DNA of 64,000 nucleotides from Tubulanus polymorphus. Taxonomy: Eukaryota; Nemertea; Palaeonemertea; Tubulaniformes; Tubulanidae. The notes under the pieces were generated by a model that had not been told where the DNA came from, did not search any database, and saw nothing but the letters and a program-made list of their open reading frames with translations. The stretch lies in assembly GCF_964204645.1 (NCBI RefSeq), contig NC_134025.1:28612001-28676000 (forward strand), given 5' to 3'. Made by a program: the position numbers and the translations under genes. Positions 1,575 to 62,300 of this stretch are shown here, piece by piece; the first letter of the stretch is position 1; each line of letters starts with the position of its first letter.

Positions 1575-4129
1575 CTTCCAATAAAACTCTCTAATTGAAT
1601 ATTTCTAAATAACAACTGGATCACTTCATCCTGCAATCCGTAGAATATGTACTGACAGTTTGACTTCGCTGGATAATTCTGCGGATACCGCGGCGAGAAA
1701 AACTGTCCATTTTTTGATTGATATAAATCGGTACTTTGAAATACATATCTACAGCTGTTCTTGTCCTTCACCCCATCAGGGGCGTATAGTTCTGAAATCG
1801 TGAAAAATAACCATCATTCGAGTTAGAAATATTTGACGCCTATCTAAACACGACAGATTACCGGCAAACTGCGTCAAATGTTATAACTGTCATCTTAATA
1901 CAAACGAGGCGAGGTACCTAGTTCAAGCTGACCTCGATGTTAATTCCTTATCTAATATAAAAGGAACTCACTTTTTTCTTTGAAGGTAAATTTGCCTCGA
2001 AACCCGCGGCATTTATCAGTATTTTCCCTCGAACCAAACTCTAACACTATTATCCTATGACGCGAATAGAATGTTTTTTGCTGCATGTCTTTTATATCAC
2101 CGCAGAATTCATAGTTCCACATGTACTTTTCATTAATGCCTAATCGTTCTAAATCCAAATAAAAACGTAAAAAGTCTGTACACCTGAAAATGAAGAGTAA
2201 CGCATTTAGCTTTAATGTCGGTAATGATTTCTATCGGGGCATTCTCCTCCATTAGATCAAAACAATTTTCAGCCCCCGAGCGAAGAAATCCGGAGTCGAT
2301 TTTGCTACCATAACGTGTTCCCAATGGTGAAATCGTGAACCTCGTAGCTAACTATCGATGTAACCAGTGGGAAATCACGAAAATCGTAAATTCCGAAATG
2401 ATCCCGAGAGTTGCAAAAACTATAAAACTGAGTTCTGTATAATCTATTGATATAACGTCAACTTACTTATATGATGTTCTATTCGTTGAATTCACTTCTA
2501 GATCGAATCTTTTCTTGGGCATCATTTCAAATTCGGTAAACGATAATTCTACTATTTCATCCGGATCCCCGACGAACATGTACAATATACAGTCTTCATG
2601 GGAGGGATATGGATCTGGAAAATCCGGTGAATGAAATGTCCCTGTATTTCCGCCTGTGCTTTGGAAGGTTACACATCTACAAGCTGAAATTGAAAATATG
2701 ATAACCAATTGAAAATAATGACTTGAAAGTTGTTATTCAGAACAGCACATTTTGATATCGATAAACAATTTTCTTTTGCCTTCCCTAAAAGAGATTAGTA
2801 TATTATCATCAACTTGTCTCATTTTTACGAACCGCTCTAGGGACATATAAGTTTAGCACTTGACTTATATTTTCTGATTCTTTCTAATTTGCAGAAAACT
2901 ATTTTCGTGTTGACGTGATTTCAAATTGTTAAAACCTTTCTCATTATATTCAGCAGTTGTTGTAAAAGAATTGTTGAAATTGTCTCTGGATCTATAGTGA
3001 CTCTATGGCATATTCTCTCCTAGGAAAGATGACCAATTGTCGTACATCGGTACTAAAGAGAAGTTTACGTTTAGATTCACTAGACACAGGCGATACCTAT
3101 TGTCAAGGTTGCCACTTGTTGCTTAAGGCAAGAACAATGTTAAGTAAGTGGTATCTTGGAGTTCTTAGTTATAACAGGAACGGCGATGGAGAGGGTCCTA
3201 CGCCGGAGCCGCATTGAGCATTCCCACATCTCGTCGATCTAAGATGCAGAATTATATCTCATAACGACGGGGTTCGAATCCGTAAATCTACATTCGTATT
3301 GTTAATTCGACCGGTTTACTCTAATAAATTAGATGCCTTTAAACACTTCGATGCCTGAAATATGTCCCCAGAGCGATCGGAACGATAACGCTCTTAGAAC
3401 GTCAACCTGTTGAAACTAAAGGAGCTTTCCTACCCTGAAAAATCATAAGCTTTAATACATATAGAAATAATGGCCTTAGAGACATGTTGTATTTTCTGCA
3501 AAAGACATCATTAATCAGAATTCAGTGGCTGTTTATATTGCGTGCCCTGTTAATTGACCATAAAATGATAGATCAACCACTGTACGTGACGTAATTTTAC
3601 CTCTCTCAATGTGATAGGTACTCTCTGTAGAGAAAACTCTACATTCCTCCTTGTCTGCATAAAATATTTAATATACATGGATAACAATAACATGTGATAT
3701 TCTATACGTCTGTCAAAAATGTCGATAGAATAAAAATAATAAACGTTAAAATGAAGAATATCTACACTAGCATGTTTAACAATGTATTCTCAAATTTCAT
3801 CAAATCTACGCTGATTTAAACCACCGAGTCTTTCTTATATCAATAGCTTTATTGAATTCGAAATGAAATCAGTTCGCTGCTGGCAGATGGCAGCTACGGG
3901 TTTGTGAAAATATTGTTTAGAAAGTAATAAACGATTCCGTTCTTAGAAATAGATTTTACTCGTCATTCGAAACGATGTGGAAATAATATTTGCTGCTAGG
4001 AATTTTATTATTTTGGGTATCATAAAATGACGGAATTATAAATCGAGCGGACTTACCTGGATTGATTGCAAGACTTACATAGATGAATGAATATAATATC
4101 ACAATAAATAGCACCTCAAATACAGTCAT
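1575..4129 (-). CDS. Secreted or membrane CUB-domain protein, suppressor-of-lurcher (SOL-1)-like; 3' end not found
   Basis: Four exons join in phase: 4129-4057, 2683-2467, 2183-1972 and 1791-1575, each bounded by AG acceptors and GTAAGT or GTGAGT donors. Together they give 239 codons and two extra bases. Exon 1 encodes a hydrophobic signal peptide (MTVFEVLFIVILYSF...). Its ATG directly follows a TTTTTCAG, so a 5' UTR exon upstream is likely. Exons 2 and 3 form one complete CUB domain: C-R-C, GTFHSPDFPDPYP, a Cys before ILY, DEIVELSF, NST and NRT glycosylation sites, YEFCGD, and a final GFRGKFTF. Exon 4 starts a second CUB (NGQFFSPRYPQNYP, then DEVIQLLF) and ends in phase 2 at a good donor. 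The remaining exon(s) were not found in 1-1570. SOL-1 proteins are CUB-rich auxiliary proteins of AMPA-type glutamate receptors. Assignment to that subfamily rests on the DEIVELSF and YEFCGD signatures and is less sure than the CUB call. Confidence 0.82.
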
Positions 4130-43838: not shown

Positions 43839-45059
43839 CTAATCCTCTGATTCGGTTTCGTCTTTATTTTCTTTAGCTTGTTTGAATTTTTCCTTCACCA
43901 TGTTTAAACCCGGTTCGTTGCATTCATTCCAATAAGGCAACGACTTCATTCGTTTCATGTAAGCTACGATATTACCCCAATGAGACAAGTCGTAGTCCAA
44001 TGGCTCTAAACTCGAGATCGATGCTGCTATGTGAAGATCAGCAATAGTCATATGTGCTCCGGTCGTGTATGCCTTCCCTTCCAGATATTTATCAAACGAA
44101 TTGAATGATTCTTCCAGCGCTTTTTTCGCCTCGTCACTAGGCTCGGAACCTTCACTAAAAAACGATTTCTGAAAAAATACATCGAGAATATTGTGGAAAT
44201 TCGCGTTTGAAATTTATTTTACACATATATAGTTGATATGGAACTATATGAAATGAAAATATTGAATAAAACATCGTTATTCATGAAATTATGTCAGCCG
44301 CTGTACGATTGCTGTACGAACCTGTCACTCTTCTAAGAATTGACCTTACCCGACTGTGTGTACGTTATAAACCCACCCACCGCCCCCCGTCTACCACACA
44401 CTAAAGGACATCATAGCATTAAAGATTTCTAAAGATCTAAACTATGTGCCGGCGTTTGAACGGCGTTTATATCCAAAGCAACTTACCAAATAAGGTATAA
44501 TTTTACCAAATATTTGTTCCATATCGTAGAACAGGAGCCTGTTAACTAATCCACGTTTTTGGGGATCCGCTGGATACAGTGTATCATTGATACTGTACCT
44601 ATCTGCTAGATACATATTCACAGCCCGACTGAAATACGTGCGATGCAAATTAATTTTTCACAGTCCGAAGACATATACAATTCGAATTTCAAAAATTACG
44701 TGTGTAAATTCGTACCTTTCCCATAAATGGTAACCATTATCATCGATTGTAGGTAAAGTATGATCTGGATTTACCTGTGGGAAAATACGTGCATATACAT
44801 TTTACAGAATTGGAGATGGCGATTTAAACTATCTGGAACTTATCAGTTGTAATGAAGTACCCCCCCCCCCCCCCATTATTTCATTTTATAGGTTTATAGG
44901 TTTAACAATTACCTTCAAAAATTCCGGATGAAACTGTTCCTCAGAAAATAAATCAACTGGTAAAAGTTTTATCTGTAATTTAAGTTCCTTGATTGTAAGT
45001 AGCACAGCACGACTCGGTGGTCCAGCAGGCTCAAAATACACAAATATCGGATCCTTCAT
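43839..45059 (-). CDS. Glutathione S-transferase, Delta/Epsilon-like, complete, four exons
   Basis: Exons 45059-44913, 44774-44716, 44628-44487 and 44168-43839 join in phase to 678 bases, 225 residues plus TAG, the usual cytosolic GST length. The N-terminal thioredoxin-like domain (about 1-80) carries RAVLLTIKELKL, HPEFLKVNPDHTLPTI with its cis-proline, DNGYHLWESRAV (the glutathione-binding E-S pair) and YLADRY. The helical C-terminal domain contains a MTIADLHIAASIS segment, the conserved N-capping box region, and a final KSLPYWNEC. Known family role: conjugation of glutathione to electrophiles in the cytosol. Oddity: Delta/Epsilon enzymes normally have a catalytic Ser in a PxS motif near residue 10, but here the local sequence is EPAGPPSRAV, with Gly at the aligned place and a Ser two residues after the next Pro. 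The acidic, lysine-rich tail (KENKDETESED) is also unusual. Every splice site is GT-AG. Confidence 0.93.
44862..44875 (+). repeat. Poly-C tract in GST intron 1
   Basis: An uninterrupted run of about 14-16 C bases (G on the coding strand) lies in the first GST intron, between the exons ending at 44913 and starting at 44774. Length is uncertain because such runs are prone to assembly and replication slippage. Confidence 0.8.
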
Positions 45060-46996: not shown

Positions 46997-47223
46997 CTCA
47001 TTTACATACCAAGAATTTTACGCTATGTCCCTTATCAGCCACCATAGGAAAGAGTTTTTCGCCAGGTTTTTTACATAGAATTAGATCGTGCTAAAATCTA
47101 GTCAACTCTTACACTCGAGAATTAGCGAATACTTCAGTTAGTCCAGTACGGTAGTGTACCCGTCGTTCCACGAATTCAGACTAATACCGCATTGTACTCG
47201 TTTTTACAGCCATTTTCCGTAAG

Positions 47224-47762
47224 ATGTCTCACGAACTCCTGATACCAGGCTGTAACACTGTGTGGTTGACTAGAAATAGTGGCTGCCCTGCAGTTAATGC
47301 TGTCGCATTAGGATTCCAGCCTAACGCGGGCCCGCTGTATTCAGCTGTAGCCGATACACCCGTGGGTAGAATCCCCGGTAAAGCAAAAGATAATACGTGT
47401 TGGTATTCGTTGAACGGAAGAGAGGAATGTACCGATCAATTTTGGTGGGTTTGCAGTCCCAGTAAAGTTAGTTCATATGTAAGTATGAAATAATAGAATT
47501 ACATTGTAATGAATTCACAGCATGATTTTGTATGGAAAAAGTCATAAAACAGTCATATATTTCACAGCGTGGAAATTTCCCGAAGAACCCAATTACTGGC
47601 GGTTACCAACACGATGGAACTGGTATCTACTACCTGGTTGTAGCGGACACACCTTACGGTACAATACCCGGTAAAATTCGTCCTGGAAGTAATCAGTGCA
47701 GTTACGCGTACGGAGGTAGAGAGGAAACTTCTTCGCAATTTTCATACGTCGTTTTGAAATAA
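47224..47762 (+). CDS. DM9-repeat protein (DUF3421), candidate mannose-binding lectin
   Basis: Exon 1 is 47224-47478 (donor GTAAGT) and exon 2 is 47568-47762 (acceptor TTTCACAG). They join in phase 0 into 149 residues ending in TAA. There is no signal peptide, so a cytosolic protein is expected. Two DM9 repeats are clear. In repeat 1: AVALGFQPNAGPLYSAVADT, then RIPGKAKDNTCWYSLNGREE. In repeat 2: GGYQHDGTGIYYLVVADTPY, then GTIPGKIRPGSNQCSYAYGG. The PGK motif followed by a Cys and a GxEE turn is typical of the family. In oysters two-DM9 proteins bind mannose and take part in pathogen recognition; that role is known for relatives and inferred here. An AATAAA overlaps the stop (47758-47763) and another lies at 48077-48082. 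The start ATG (AAGATGTCT) has a good context. Any 5' UTR exon was not placed. Confidence 0.93.
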
Positions 47763-49329: not shown

Positions 49330-51873
49330 TGTTAGCATTACGTATACTATTTCTAGTAATTTACGAGTTGATTCTAAAGAATGGTCTCAAAGAATGCTAT
49401 AAATATTTCGCTATTTGTTCGCGTTTATTCGGAATTTTTCGGATTTCAGGCCACCACACGTAGTATACAGTACTCTATAAGATATATTCCATGCGTAATA
49501 CGTAGCACCTCTAGAGTACTAATCTCAAGTCTTCTTATGGCGATATCGGTGGATTTTTGACGGGATGTAATTTACGGCGCCGTCGCTAACAACCGACCAG
49601 AGGACACACACGTATTTTTACACTGGTTGCCGCTGAGCGTGGACGACACGTTTAGTGTTAACTGAACGCTGTGGGCGTTATGAGATTAGCCCGGAATCAA
49701 TCAATCTTTGTTTATATCCATCTGTATCAATCTGTACCTTAATTAATTGATTGGGCCCGCTAAATGCTCGCCAATCCATTCATTATATACTGGCATATTG
49801 CTGCTGACCATATGTTATATTGCAGTTGTTAATACTTGTCTATTTCCATCATGATTTTCATTTCATTAGGCATTCTGTAAGAATGGGTAGTATAAGTTTA
49901 GGTCTCTACAAGAAGTAACCATGGCTGAGAGCAGGGAGATAACTGGAGATAAGTAAAATTAAAAAGGACTTATGTGAGTAGTGCCATGATGATCGGGACT
50001 GCATGGTCATCTGTATCCCAAACACATACTGCGAACAATACACAACTGCTCATAGAATCGGGCCTTCTCTTAAGATAGTTAGGAGATTTTGAAATGAATA
50101 TTTCATTGTACGTACGCGAATACATTATTGATTTTCAAGTTTACTTAAAGATAATAAGGAAGAGAATTATACTTCAATTACCAAATTGAAAATGATATTC
50201 AAAAAGATTTCGATGAATCACTGGATTCAGTGCATTGATCCAGCGCTAACTAAACATTACGTTGAGTGAATTTGAGCTATGCTTCTTGAGTAAATATCTA
50301 CAGCAGAACCGAAACTTACACCGATCAGTACCGGGGGCAATCGCGTGTTTTCGTAGGGATTTTTAGGAATGGTGGTTTTTGCGTCGTCGTAAAATGACTA
50401 TTTACTCTGCGTAGATACCCATGAGGAATTGATGACGGTTTGTAACAACAACATCATACGATGCCTTCAGGTTTCAAATAGCTGAATGAAAACAAAAGAT
50501 TAACAACTACAGACGAAGACATCATTCTTATATTATTGCTAAAGTTCTCTAATGTATACTCTCAGAATTGCAGGCATGCGCAGATTACACGAATTACACT
50601 GTTTACTAAAGCATTTAGAATGAATTGATTGAATATGAAGCTTTGCTGTTATCAAAAGAACCTTACATGGTATACATAATATTGAGATGCTATCCTCGCA
50701 GGATGTGAATATATATTTTTGCAACAAAACGACCCGAAGACATATTTTGGTGAAAAGGCCAAGCGCCCTAGCTGCTTGACGTTTATTATATATATGGCCT
50801 AATTAATTAGGTAATACGGCAGTGGGCTAAAACAATGATAACGTGTTGTCTATAATCTGTGAAAAACTATAAAATTATATGATACGTATCTGATACATGC
50901 ATTTTATATTTCATAACACAAAGCTATTAAAACGGATAGGAGACCACCTGTTTCACTCGTTTATCGTCAAAGGGAAAGGATTTGAATAATAAAAGCGTAA
51001 CCCGTATGATGTTCTTATACAACTTGCTAAGCGATCCACAAACCGCTGAAGTTTCATGAGCGAAGATTGATGATCATTCCAAATTGGGTAAGTTCAAGCG
51101 ATCCGATTTATAGGATGTTTCGCTCAGGTAATATGGTCATGATGGTGTCACTGCGCGTCACATTGACCGTCAAGCGTAAGCGGTTAACCGAAGTCAAAAA
51201 TGATTACTGTCGGTTTTTTGTGTTAGTCGACTATTTGCGAACTAAAGCTCAACGCAAACGAAACTGCGACACGAAAACAAACATGTTTGGGCTCGAAAAC
51301 TTTGTTCTCGAAAAGCCATGTTTCTCGCTACAGCGGTCGACACGGCGAAACGCTCGTTTCTGTCTCCGTGTTCCGTGTCTCCATATACACCGTGTGCGTC
51401 GGGGTGTAGTGAAATCGAATGTCAGTTATAGCCGAAAATGTAGTCCGAAAATAGCGAACCACGCAACTGAGCACGATTGCAGTAGTTCGGACTTAGTTCC
51501 AAGATGGCCGACTATGAAATTCGTATGACCGAACTATTGCGCGTTCGATTATTAACTGCGACCACTAGTCGAGACTAATTACGAAGTTCGCCCAGTATGA
51601 CGCATATAATCGATAGTCTATTCAAACATTAATTTGAACATAAGTTTCTCTAACGGCGGGTATGACGTAATTCTTTTGCTGAAATGAAGTAAAACAGACA
51701 TCGACTTTAATCAGAATCTTTTAAAGTGCGCGCAATATTAGAACACTGCAACATCAATCCAACACTGTAAGCGTCGTCACTCTGTATCATACAGGTTTTA
51801 ATTGCAAGCCAGCTCAGAAATGGTCTCCGACACCCCGGAATAAGCCTAGTACGGAATAATAGCACGCGCCAGT
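49330..51873. other. Intergenic stretch without a supported gene
   Basis: The longest frame is 153 codons on plus at 51067-51528; it is Arg-rich and unrecognised. A short 24-codon frame starts at 51504 with a strong context (CCAAGATGGCC) and ends before any donor. The AAGATGGC word is also a YY1-type promoter motif, so this GC-richer patch could be a promoter. Nothing else is supported. Confidence 0.4.
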
Positions 51874-52314
51874 TTAGTTTGAAGTCACTTGATTAATTTT
51901 CGAGGCGTATTTCAGTTTGATTTGGTTTTTAGCGTGTCTTCCGCGTGTCTTTTTTGGACGTTTCGGTCTGTGGCGATGATGAACTTTTCTTTCATGTTTT
52001 GAAATCGCCGGGTGATGATCGCGTGACCTTTGGCCTTTAGTCTTTATAAAGTGTAATTTGTCCTCGTAAATCATGCAACCATCGTCCACCTGTGCTCCTC
52101 CGCTAGACCAGCAGCCGTCTTGACACGTTGATAAGTCGTAATGAATCGTCATTTCATCGCAATAAACGCATTTTAAGAGACAATGTTCGATCAAAGAGCT
52201 TTTCATCTGTTGCTCACGTTTACTGATTGCTCCCGTCGAATATGGCAGGTAGAGCAATATATGCGACGATAAAACAGAAATGAAATATTTAAACCACTGC
52301 GGCGACATCTTCAT
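51874..52314 (-). CDS. Secreted Cys-rich prohormone with eclosion-hormone-like cysteine spacing
   Basis: One coding exon of 146 residues begins at an ATG placed directly after a TATATTTTCAG acceptor, so an upstream 5' UTR exon is likely. Residues 1-29 form a signal peptide with a hydrophobic core (FISVLSSHILLYLPY). A dibasic Lys-Arg at 32-33 is a candidate prohormone cleavage site. Six cysteines at 45, 49, 52, 64, 68 and 80 have the spacing C-x3-C-x2-C-x11-C-x3-C-x11-C. Arthropod eclosion hormones have C-x3-C-x2-C, about 12, C-x3-C, about 10, C, a close match. The rest of the chain (from about 94) is very basic and rich in Lys, Arg and His, with several more dibasic sites. Family membership rests on spacing alone, because little other sequence agrees. 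The alternative is an unrelated secreted Cys-rich peptide. Confidence 0.6.
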   Translation of the reverse strand: MKMSPQWFKYFISVLSSHILLYLPYSTGAISKREQQMKSSLIEHCLLKCVYCDEMTIHYDLSTCQDGCWSSGGAQVDDGCMIYEDKLHFIKTKGQRSRDHHPAISKHERKVHHRHRPKRPKKTRGRHAKNQIKLKYASKINQVTSN

Positions 52315-55680
<3,366 letters not shown>

Positions 55681-56037
55681 GTCCACGCCTACGTGTCATT
55701 TTTCATCTGCTAAACGAAGTGTATATATATAGTGGATGCTTTGTGCGGACGAAGCGCTCGGTGACAGATTGGCAAAACACTGGCAAAAACATACACCTGG
55801 TGCATAAGTGTATTTTCATTGCTTTTAATTTTTGCGGTATGCCATTTATTCAAATGATAAGAAGATTGAAAAGTCTATCAGACCAATGGTTAAAAATAAT
55901 GAATAGCAGAGTATTTGTGTTTAATAATTGCTGTGAATCATTGTTATCTTTTCTTAAACCATTATTTAGTCTAACCACGGTCACGTCCCGTCTCCATTTG
56001 TTGCTTATCTTAAAACCTTAAAAATTTCTAAACGATC

Positions 56038-58317: not shown

Positions 58318-58588
58318 ATATACGTGCAACGTGTTCCTCTTTTTTACGAATATATTTCGGTCACAAATGATTTGCGTAATTGTACTGCATTTTACACTAT
58401 TCATCATGTTCTCACACTAGAAATCACACTTAGATCGGGTGTGGTATTAACAATAATTGACAGCAGAAACCACGTTTTAGCAGACATAATGAATATGTTC
58501 AAAGGTGGGTAGATGAATTATACGTATTTATACACACCGGTTATGCATATTTAGGGGTAATAATAATAACTTACACCATCACCACATC

Positions 58589-59375
<787 letters not shown>

Positions 59376-62300
59376 TCAGGTATAACGAAGAGGATGCCAC
59401 ATGGCAATAGCTTTTCTATGATTACTTATCATATCTAACCAATGTTTCTCTCCGATCCCCTCGACATCGCGAGCCACGTTACAGTGACCAACGGCATCGT
59501 TATGACCCAGCAAATCGTAATCTAAAACGGTGATCTCCAGCGCTACTTTTTGCAACATTTCTGCCGGAATATTGAAGACGAGGGCTTCATTCCATACCGG
59601 GTTGGTCGTTCCTTTCCGCACGGCCGTTTTCTTCTTCTTCACGCGTTTGCCATCAACGATCAGCGAGACTCGCACGTACGGATCTGAATTGAATTGATAA
59701 ACACACGTCTATAATACATGTATTTTTTTTTAGGAAAAAATCGCCTTCTAAACACCAGAAACTTTCGACGATACATCATATAATCGACAATATATAATTA
59801 AGCACATTTCGCCCGTGGTCTCAATGCTATTCCCTCCCTTCTGAGTAAAGTCGCTAGTTCTATGAAAATGGAAGTTGAAATTACAGTAATCGGAACCCGG
59901 AGGCACGGCTGATGGTATCCGGCGAACCTGCCGTGTGATTCCGTAAATTGAATCCGCCAAATCGCGGAAGGAATACCGACATAAGTGTACCGTTATACAA
60001 TTTCAAGGTTTCGTCATCAAGGGCGCCTTCTCAGATTGCTGAAGATCGGCTCATCAACATTCCATACAGAAAAGGAAGATTCCAGTGAACTACACTTACC
60101 CGAAGATCCAGATTCTGAGGTCACGCGAAGATTTTGAGCTTTCATGATTACAACAGTCAGTCGCTCAGCGGATGGTAGATAGCTCAATGAGACCAGTAAT
60201 TCACCGAGAGGACTTTCAGTCTAAAATATATAGAATGATATTACGTTAAAATCAAATGCCATCGATGTACAAAACGTGTGATTTTTCCACCAGAAAAAAC
60301 TTTCAATTAACGGTTTTACAACTCTTTTTGTCACTAATTGTGTGTAATGATGCTTGGGAGTATATGTAGTGCTTGGGAAACCAAGACCCAAGCGACTTTA
60401 AGACAAACAAACAATAATGGGCGGTTAACGGACTCATTGTCGATTCTTTGCGCTATTCTACGGTGACGTCATTCGTAGCATATAAGCTAAGCGAAAACGT
60501 CTCGAGCTTTTGGGGGAATTTTTCAGGCTAGTGTTCTATATAAAAAATCGTGATCTGTTGTAACCTCAAGTATTAAACTCTAATATCCTAGAATAAATTG
60601 CGTACAAAACAATCCTTTATAGTTATTCACACGCAGTAATAAATCCACAAAATAAACACACATTACATCGCTCTGACGTCAGATGGCCGGATATTTTCCG
60701 GCTGTCTTTATTCTATGGTGTCTCGTGTCGGAAAACGATGTAATCGGAAAGTTTTGACGATAGCTCAAGGGTTTTTATAAATTAGATTTTCGGAGTTTGT
60801 TTTATGTGAATTGTCTTATGTAGGCTACCGGGTAGATGAGGGTATATATTTCTAACGTCCTTCCTTACGGCCAGAATCCGGCTAATTATGAAAGAGTTTT
60901 TCATCTCACCACCAGAATGACATTAATTATTTATTAGTACCTATCGGATGATAATTTCCGACCTCGTAGGAATCGAAAGCCAGTGGAATTACGACAGGAA
61001 GGACAACGGACGGAAATCAACCTGTCGCATACGTAAACATCGAACGAAAGCGGATACCACCAGATACAAGATATCAACAGACAATCATTTCCCGTTAGTT
61101 ATAAAAAAGAATAGATAAATACAAATACAATCATAGATGATAAAGAGATGATCGCATTTATATCACCAGCATTTATCAGAAATTACATTCGAGCGCCAAA
61201 TCGTCGACCGAATTTTCTCCTAAGGCTTCGCCATTCTGAACTTGATCCCAAACAATGGGCTAATATCTGTTTGGTTGCGGGTTTATCTGTGGCGGCCACT
61301 GTAAGGGGTCTTCGAGCGCACGGGAAGAGGGAAGATCATCCATACGACGTTTCCATGTCAACTGTGACGTGTGTAGTTCACACCGAGTATTCAACAAGAT
61401 TACCCGATTCACGAGGACATTATTAAAAGAAAGGGACTTCAGGAAGATAGAAGTAGAACCATGAAAGATTCGGTGAAATGAATTTAAATTTTCACCAATA
61501 TCTAGTAGAATTACGTATGCGCACGGTAACCACTAAGCCACTGATGATATTAAACACCGCTCAGATAAATACCCTCCCAGTAGTGAGAATAAGTCTTCCA
61601 GTAGACGACTCAGTTTAAGCCGCAGGTGATATTAAAGTACCCTGTAGGTTTAATGGTAAGTTCGTTATAGATAAGTAGTGCGTGGCTCTTATCAGCAACC
61701 GAATTAGATGTTGATCACATCAGCTCGCGGAATCTGACACCTCGTTAAAGCTACGGTTATCAATGTACGACAAATTGACAATTTCAGCCATATTCGAGCG
61801 CAAAGGAGATTCTATCGTGAGAATTCTTGGATGACTAGTGTGATTGGTTATTTAAGTATTCCCACTGTTCTAATGCCGTGCATCGGTATAAATTGAGGCG
61901 CTGCGTGTTCGAAAATTATGTCGCAGAATTTTGCTGTCGTCAGATGAAGACGAATGCTTACCTGTTGATACTGTTGAATATCACTCCAGACCTCGATGCT
62001 TGTGCTGATATCAACTGACTTCAAATCCAGTGTGACCTGACCTATGCCCTCGTGGCGAGAAAAACGATCGAAATTGTTCACATGAAAAACTAACTGTCTC
62101 TCTTTCACTTCCTCGTAAGTTATCGGAAACTTGAAATATTCGTCGAAAACCGGATGACAGGTTTTCCGTTTGACGGATGATTGTCGAGGTTTCGAATCGA
62201 CTTGCGGCTGTAGGGCGATCTTTACGTAAGGGTCGCTGAATCCAGTCGTTAAATCTACTGACGGTAAATCTTGAGCTGAAAAACAACAAAAAAACCGTCC

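Follow-up and report, generated by a model that had tools for sequence, protein, structure and literature searches.

A constrained five-gene family with an eclosion hormone-like cysteine framework and a basic tail in the nemertean Tubulanus polymorphus

In the 64,000-nucleotide stretch of Tubulanus polymorphus DNA analyzed here (the window), a short minus-strand exon encodes one member of a real, constrained family of five genes whose products share a six-cysteine framework like that of eclosion hormone (EH). The reading that we favor, at a probability of about 0.45, is that the product is a small secreted signaling protein from an old and dispersed lophotrochozoan family, with a basic tail that either tethers it to the matrix or is clipped once. 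EH is a central molting hormone of insects, and this family offers a concrete, testable set of candidate ligands in a lophotrochozoan, among animals that do not molt. It may also be an instance of a hormone design turned into a local, matrix-bound signal.

The coding exon

The coding sequence occupies 51877-52314 of the minus strand and is followed by a TAA stop codon at 51874-51876; the ATG-to-TAA frame encodes 146 amino acids. The original prediction had placed the gene correctly at 51874 to 52314 and had left its strand unstated. A plus-strand reading was rejected, since the plus-strand frame that we translated contains many stops. On the minus strand, the frame stays open upstream of the ATG to 52425, and the motif TTTTCAG directly abuts the ATG, so a downstream exon probably starts at that codon. 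An AG or AGA lies immediately 5' of the ATG in all five paralogs. This acceptor-like sequence could mark either an intron in the 5' untranslated region or a site of spliced-leader trans-splicing, and because all five copies retain it, retroposition of the copies is unlikely. Scans of the window against Rfam and for tRNAs gave no matches.

The six cysteines, at residues 45, 49, 52, 64, 68, and 80 of the window protein, are spaced x3, x2, x11, x3, x11, exactly as first described. A scan of the window in all six frames yields a single instance of C-x3-C-x2-C-x11/12-C-x3-C-x10/11-C, and none of 150 first-order Markov windows of the same length contains one. These Markov windows, the four paralogs, and the divergence by codon position described below led us to reject a chance cysteine pattern. 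The features of the gene and of the rest of the window are collected in Table 1.

Table 1. Features in the window, with positions counted from its first nucleotide
Feature	Position	Strand	Basis
Coding exon, 146 aa plus TAA; window copy of the five-member family	51874..52314	-	ORF, four paralogs, codon-position constraint, pattern above chance
Hydrophobic N-terminus (residues 1-29), probably a signal peptide, with ...YSTGA at its end	52228..52314	-	Hydropathy only
Lys32-Arg33, dibasic site N-terminal to the core	52216..52221	-	Site found by eye in three of the five paralogs
Residues 40-80, acidic six-cysteine core with two CX3C motifs	52075..52197	-	Invariant residues, charge
Residues 81-113, linker that differs among the copies (rich in Thr and Pro in L002 and L004; window copy not)	51976..52074	-	
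Residues 114-129, basic block RHRPKRPKKTRGRHAK	51928..51975	-	RGRH in 4 of 5 paralogs, common P-K/R-R site
Residues 130-146, tail end, unconserved	51877..51927	-	Five-copy alignment
AT-/pyrimidine-rich stretch with CAG end at the ATG, probable 3' splice acceptor	52315..52330	-	Sequence only
ATTAAA downstream of the stop, possible poly(A) signal	51797..51802	-	Sequence only
CUB-domain stretches	1574-1813, 2466-2732	-	
Glutathione S-transferase C-terminal domain stretch	43842-44213	-	
DM9-repeat stretches	47185-47490, 47526-47759	+	Second over the Pfam cutoff
Two C2-domain stretches, perhaps synaptotagmin-like	59379-59708, 61851-62300	-	

A dispersed family of five genes

A protein search of the animal's own genome (267.8 Mb, 77 contigs) recovered the window gene and four others (L002 to L005), all on contig C1; the five genes lie near 4.1, 5.3, 27.7, 28.7, and 31.3 Mb. 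The paralogs are 39 to 53% identical to the window protein over the matched parts. With L003 and L005 as queries (E values up to 10), the same five genes and no others were returned by this search, which scores the best candidates only, exon by exon, so that more distant members could escape it. Likeness among the copies at the DNA level is mainly confined to the coding exon, and the copies therefore look old.

Within the core, divergence in 10 of 10 pairs increases in the order of codon positions 2, 1, and 3 (0.10 to 0.26 at position 2 versus 0.45 to 0.71 at position 3). Together with the existence of four paralogs, this third-position-heavy divergence implies a constrained protein-coding gene, and the order is as expected if purifying selection acts on the protein. 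Twenty core residues (S40, E43, H44, C45, L46, C49, Y51, C52, Y59, D60, C64, C68, W69, S71, G73, Q75, D77, D78, G79, and C80) and one tail arginine are invariant across the five copies. The third cysteine gap is x13 in L005; the other four members keep x3, x2, x11, x3, x11.

About 2 kb from L004, we also noted an open frame of 342 residues encoding a rhodopsin-type G protein-coupled receptor (L017:8048-9073).

An acidic core followed by a basic tail

A hydrophobic N-terminus is found in all five members by hydropathy, so the signal peptide that was first proposed is probable; the maximum 11-residue hydropathy ranges from 1.98 to 3.44, with the window copy lowest at 1.98. The Lys-Arg site claimed from the sequence is indeed present after the hydrophobic N-terminus, at Lys32-Arg33. 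Because a dibasic site precedes the core in only three of the five copies, the family as a whole is not characterized by the Lys-Arg seen in the window copy.

In all five copies, the net charge (Lys and Arg versus Asp and Glu) is -4 to -6 in the core and +10 to +21 in the tail after the sixth cysteine. The strongly basic tail is 36 to 69 residues long across the family (66 in the window copy), with 12 Thr and Pro residues in L002 and 12 in L004, 6 in the window copy, 5 in L003, and 1 in L005. Four copies share a 16-residue RGRH block, in which 7 to 12 residues are identical per pair and third codon positions are the most divergent in six of six pairs. The L005 tail lacks RGRH and retains only its basic charge, being rich in Lys and Arg. 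That charge is kept while the tail sequence changes favors electrostatic binding over the release of a specific peptide.

After the core, L002 has one non-overlapping dibasic site, and the window copy, L003, and L004 have three each. The description of a tail full of dibasic sites was thus overstated, with three in the 66-residue window tail and one in L002. One dibasic site, P-K/R-R, occurs at a common place in the four copies counted (the window copy, L002, L003, and L004), reading RPKR in the window copy and RPRR in L004. Both of these sites match the furin consensus, R-x-K/R-R. We found no support for the suggestion that the tail is cut into several peptides; the one common P-K/R-R site leaves a single cut possible.

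These charges also bear on the idea that the family encodes precursors of cationic antimicrobial or defense peptides, in which the acidic domain would neutralize a basic peptide freed at P-K/R-R. An acidic core with a tail of +10 to +21, one common dibasic site in the four copies counted, and a small gene family would all fit such a precursor. However, the core is conserved better than the tail, unlike a mere pro-region, and defense families are absent among the Pfam matches, so we regard this origin as highly improbable.

Relationship to eclosion hormone

The EH-type cysteine framework proposed in the original prediction was upheld, in that four of the five members have gaps of which the two long ones lie one residue from those of insect EHs (11 and 11 here versus 12 and 10 there). 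The likeness includes the count of six cysteines, the C-x3-C-x2-C start, the fourth gap of x3, and a probable secreted precursor. In addition, three of the five copies resemble the insect EHs in having a Met three residues past the third cysteine. The mature EH peptide ends in an ASIAPFLNKL-type motif. This motif is absent from all five family members, which have the basic tail in its place. The family differs further in a conserved CWxSxGxQxDDGC motif, which the insect EHs lack, and in consisting of five dispersed copies with PF04736 scores below the cutoff.

The Pfam EH model, PF04736, has a curated cutoff of 25 bits and is arthropod based. None of the five members reached this cutoff, compared with scores of 120 and 113.3 bits for Manduca and Drosophila EHs. 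When cores were trimmed before the Pfam search, PF04736 was the sole match of the L002 core (17.1 bits, E 0.0045) and of the window core (13.8 bits, E 0.05). At full length, it was the only Pfam match of L002 (14.9 bits, E 0.023), and the window protein had no EH match up to an E value of 10, giving only NCD3G (E 0.13); the profile search suggested at the outset thus yielded a sub-cutoff match for the trimmed window core and none for the whole protein. L003, L004, and L005 had no EH match, whole or trimmed; trimmed L003, trimmed L004, and a typed family consensus had no Pfam match of any kind, and an NCBIfam search of the five proteins returned nothing. Furthermore, when the L002 core was shuffled with its cysteines held in place, 2 of 40 shuffles matched PF04736, the best at an E value of 0.0012 versus 0.0045 for the real core. 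Because shuffles match the model too, we rejected the Pfam score as proof of EH membership.

A whole-genome search with PF04736 gave five sub-cutoff matches, the best at 18.2 bits with an internal stop; the family genes were not among them. That the family genes were passed over indicates that the first look of this search can miss such genes. In a control of the same search on 14 genomes, one (a bacterium) had a match and none had a match over the cutoff.

We then compared profiles directly. A profile of the family scored 16.0 bits against Drosophila EH, 10.3 bits against Bombyx EH, and 8.3 bits against Manduca EH. The mean of these scores was equaled in 9 of 600 permutations of the non-cysteine columns; taken singly, the score was reached in 3 of 600 permutations for Drosophila, 28 for Bombyx, and 51 for Manduca. 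Cysteine-preserving shuffles reached the family-profile score in 1 of 2,000 trials for Drosophila, 54 for Bombyx, and 81 for Manduca. In the reverse direction, with a profile of these three insect EHs, the counts per 2,000 shuffles were 5 for L002, 8 for L004, 32 for the window copy, 58 for L003, and 382 for L005. A profile-profile comparison of the family with the three insect EHs gave a probability of 42.6%, and the profile alignments with EH stop short of the sixth cysteine, except for L004. The shuffles and permutations imply that the likeness to EH is mostly cysteine spacing with a marginal remainder. The proposed EH link holds for the cysteine framework, and the PF04736 scores, below the cutoff and matched by shuffles, support kinship weakly.

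EH is already known outside the arthropods. According to the excerpted text of PMC6660194, an EH ligand occurs in cnidarians, acoels, hemichordates, molluscs, annelids, nemerteans, phoronids, and onychophorans, and the excerpts of PMC6425005 and PMC8398477 report a molluscan EH and an oyster EH with two units per precursor. Echinoderm EHs are described in the excerpt of PMC5627052 as keeping the cysteines with "little sequence conservation" otherwise. The excerpt of PMC5577450 mentions EH in passing only, and the word eclosion does not occur in that of PMC8557429. The idea that a mollusc EH would be notable in itself is thus outdated, as ligands from molluscs, annelids, nemerteans, phoronids, and echinoderms are already in these published excerpts. 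In the running text excerpted from this literature on EH peptides, figures and supplements aside, we found no mention of a basic-tailed EH-type family. A search for the family's motif strings in paper texts, likewise apart from figures and supplements, returned one unrelated paper, which leaves absence from the literature unproven.

Compared by their descriptions in these excerpts, the closest parallels differ from the family in their architecture. The echinoderm EH-like precursors Spnp11/15 and Arnp11/15 are likewise small, and their six cysteines follow a dibasic site (PMC4772807, PMC5627052). In them, an acidic spacer precedes the peptide, the mature forms are proposed to be 47 to 57 residues long, and the excerpts describe no long basic tail of the kind found in the family. 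The oyster precursor Cragi-EH is likewise a lophotrochozoan six-cysteine EH-like precursor but carries two EH units (PMC8398477).

One could read the family as a genuine, divergent group of EH orthologs, in five copies and with an added C-terminal tail, that act as circulating ligands of a guanylyl cyclase receptor. That four of five members have cysteine gaps no more than one residue away from those of insect EHs speaks for this, as do PF04736 being the sole Pfam match of two cores, the 9 of 600 column permutations, the EH ligands of molluscs, annelids, nemerteans, and phoronids (PMC6660194, excerpt), and the divergence beyond the cysteines that echinoderm EHs also show (PMC5627052, excerpt). 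The scores nevertheless fall under the Pfam cutoff, where shuffles of the L002 core do equally well, the C-terminal motif of EH is replaced by a long basic tail, and the genome search found nothing over the cutoff or at the family genes, which that search can miss. We do not grant EH membership, given the score below the cutoff and the missing C-terminal motif. Orthology in this strict sense seems unlikely to us, and common descent of the family and EH is plausible, short of proof.

At the other extreme, the proteins may be growth factors or matrix proteins specific to lophotrochozoans and unrelated to EH, with convergent CX3C motifs and a glycan-binding tail. This would agree with an EH similarity that comes mainly from the cysteines, with the acidic core and basic tail of all five copies, with the CWxSxGxQxDDGC motif, and with the lack of a credible relative by sequence in the PDB. 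We consider it doubtful and, if anything, slightly harder to accept than EH orthology, because a marginal EH similarity beyond the cysteines may remain (9 of 600) and nothing positively ties the family to any growth factor family. If the likeness is convergent, it follows that six-cysteine spacing plus weak profile matches can be mistaken for EH.

The Tim10/DDP match and structure prediction

The twin CX3C spacing also resembles that of Tim10/DDP proteins (PF02953), which are mitochondrial and have no signal peptide. The trimmed L005 core (match at L005:1558-1701) scored 22.4 bits against this model, with a cutoff of 22.3, and full-length L005 scored 20.7 bits. When this core was shuffled 30 times with its cysteines kept in place, no shuffle matched, so the match is not reproduced by spacing alone. 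Small-Tim membership for the family as a whole, which this one score and its shuffles would favor, was rejected because only one of five members passed the cutoff, marginally and only when trimmed; the other four gave no Tim10/DDP match. The hydrophobic N-terminus (by hydropathy), the two extra invariant cysteines, and the long basic tail also set the family apart, and we give a small-Tim identity almost no credence.

AlphaFold2 with a five-sequence core alignment gave a mostly helical model (mean pLDDT, 59.7), which is contradicted by the mostly stranded model from a shorter alignment (mean pLDDT, 59.3); both are of low confidence. With the helical model, Foldseek found no match in the PDB, and the best PDB relatives by sequence had E values of 0.81 and 0.4, neither credible. 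Helices would suit the cysteine spacing, which is i, i+4, i+7 and i, i+4. The disulfide pairing expected for EH is 1-5, 2-4, and 3-6.

Proposed mode of action

In the favored reading, a small secreted signaling protein with a tethering or once-clipped tail, the signal peptide would be removed and the protein secreted. The core may fold like EH, as a helical hairpin tied by three disulfides, with the cysteines on one face of each helix. It would then bind a receptor at the cell surface, which may be a receptor guanylyl cyclase like that of EH; an EH-like mode of action is possible for the family. The basic tail, with its RGRH block in four copies and Lys/Arg-rich stretch in the fifth, would bind glycans like heparan sulfate and keep the signal near its source. 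Alternatively, the tail may be clipped once at P-K/R-R and so release the core. A narrower and more tentative form of this reading, which we consider less probable, is that an undescribed lophotrochozoan family combines the EH-framework core with a conserved glycan-binding tail in short-range, matrix-tethered ligands, encoded by five dispersed copies on one chromosome.

Genomic setting

Lox5, Lox4, and Lox2 genes mark the Lophotrochozoa, and the lophotrochozoan host suspected in the original prediction was borne out by genes of these types in an ordered Hox cluster. The cluster, at C6:5318228-5634747 (L020 to L028 and L031; ~316 kb), contains ten homeobox matches in one orientation. Judged by eye from signature residues, their order is presumably Post2-, Lox2-, Lox4-, Antp-, Lox5-, Scr-, Dfd-, Hox3-, pb-, and lab-like, and the Lox5-like gene has KLNGP after its homeodomain. 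Genes near C5:5.59-5.61 Mb are, by the same kind of signatures, presumably Xlox- and Cdx-like. The Hox genes place the animal among the Lophotrochozoa without pointing to the molluscs suggested in the original prediction, and the molluscan hemocyanin model PF14830 matched neither this genome nor the control genomes, so that its silence carries no information. The genome likewise gave no COX1 match and no exact match to an 18S primer. Over positions 1-64000 of the window, the observed/expected ratio of CpG is 1.25, a lack of depletion unlike that of a heavily methylated animal genome. Long microsatellites of the (TA)n type lie at 55353-55729 and within 58461-58897 of the window; several of their frames stay open and encode YIYI repeats.
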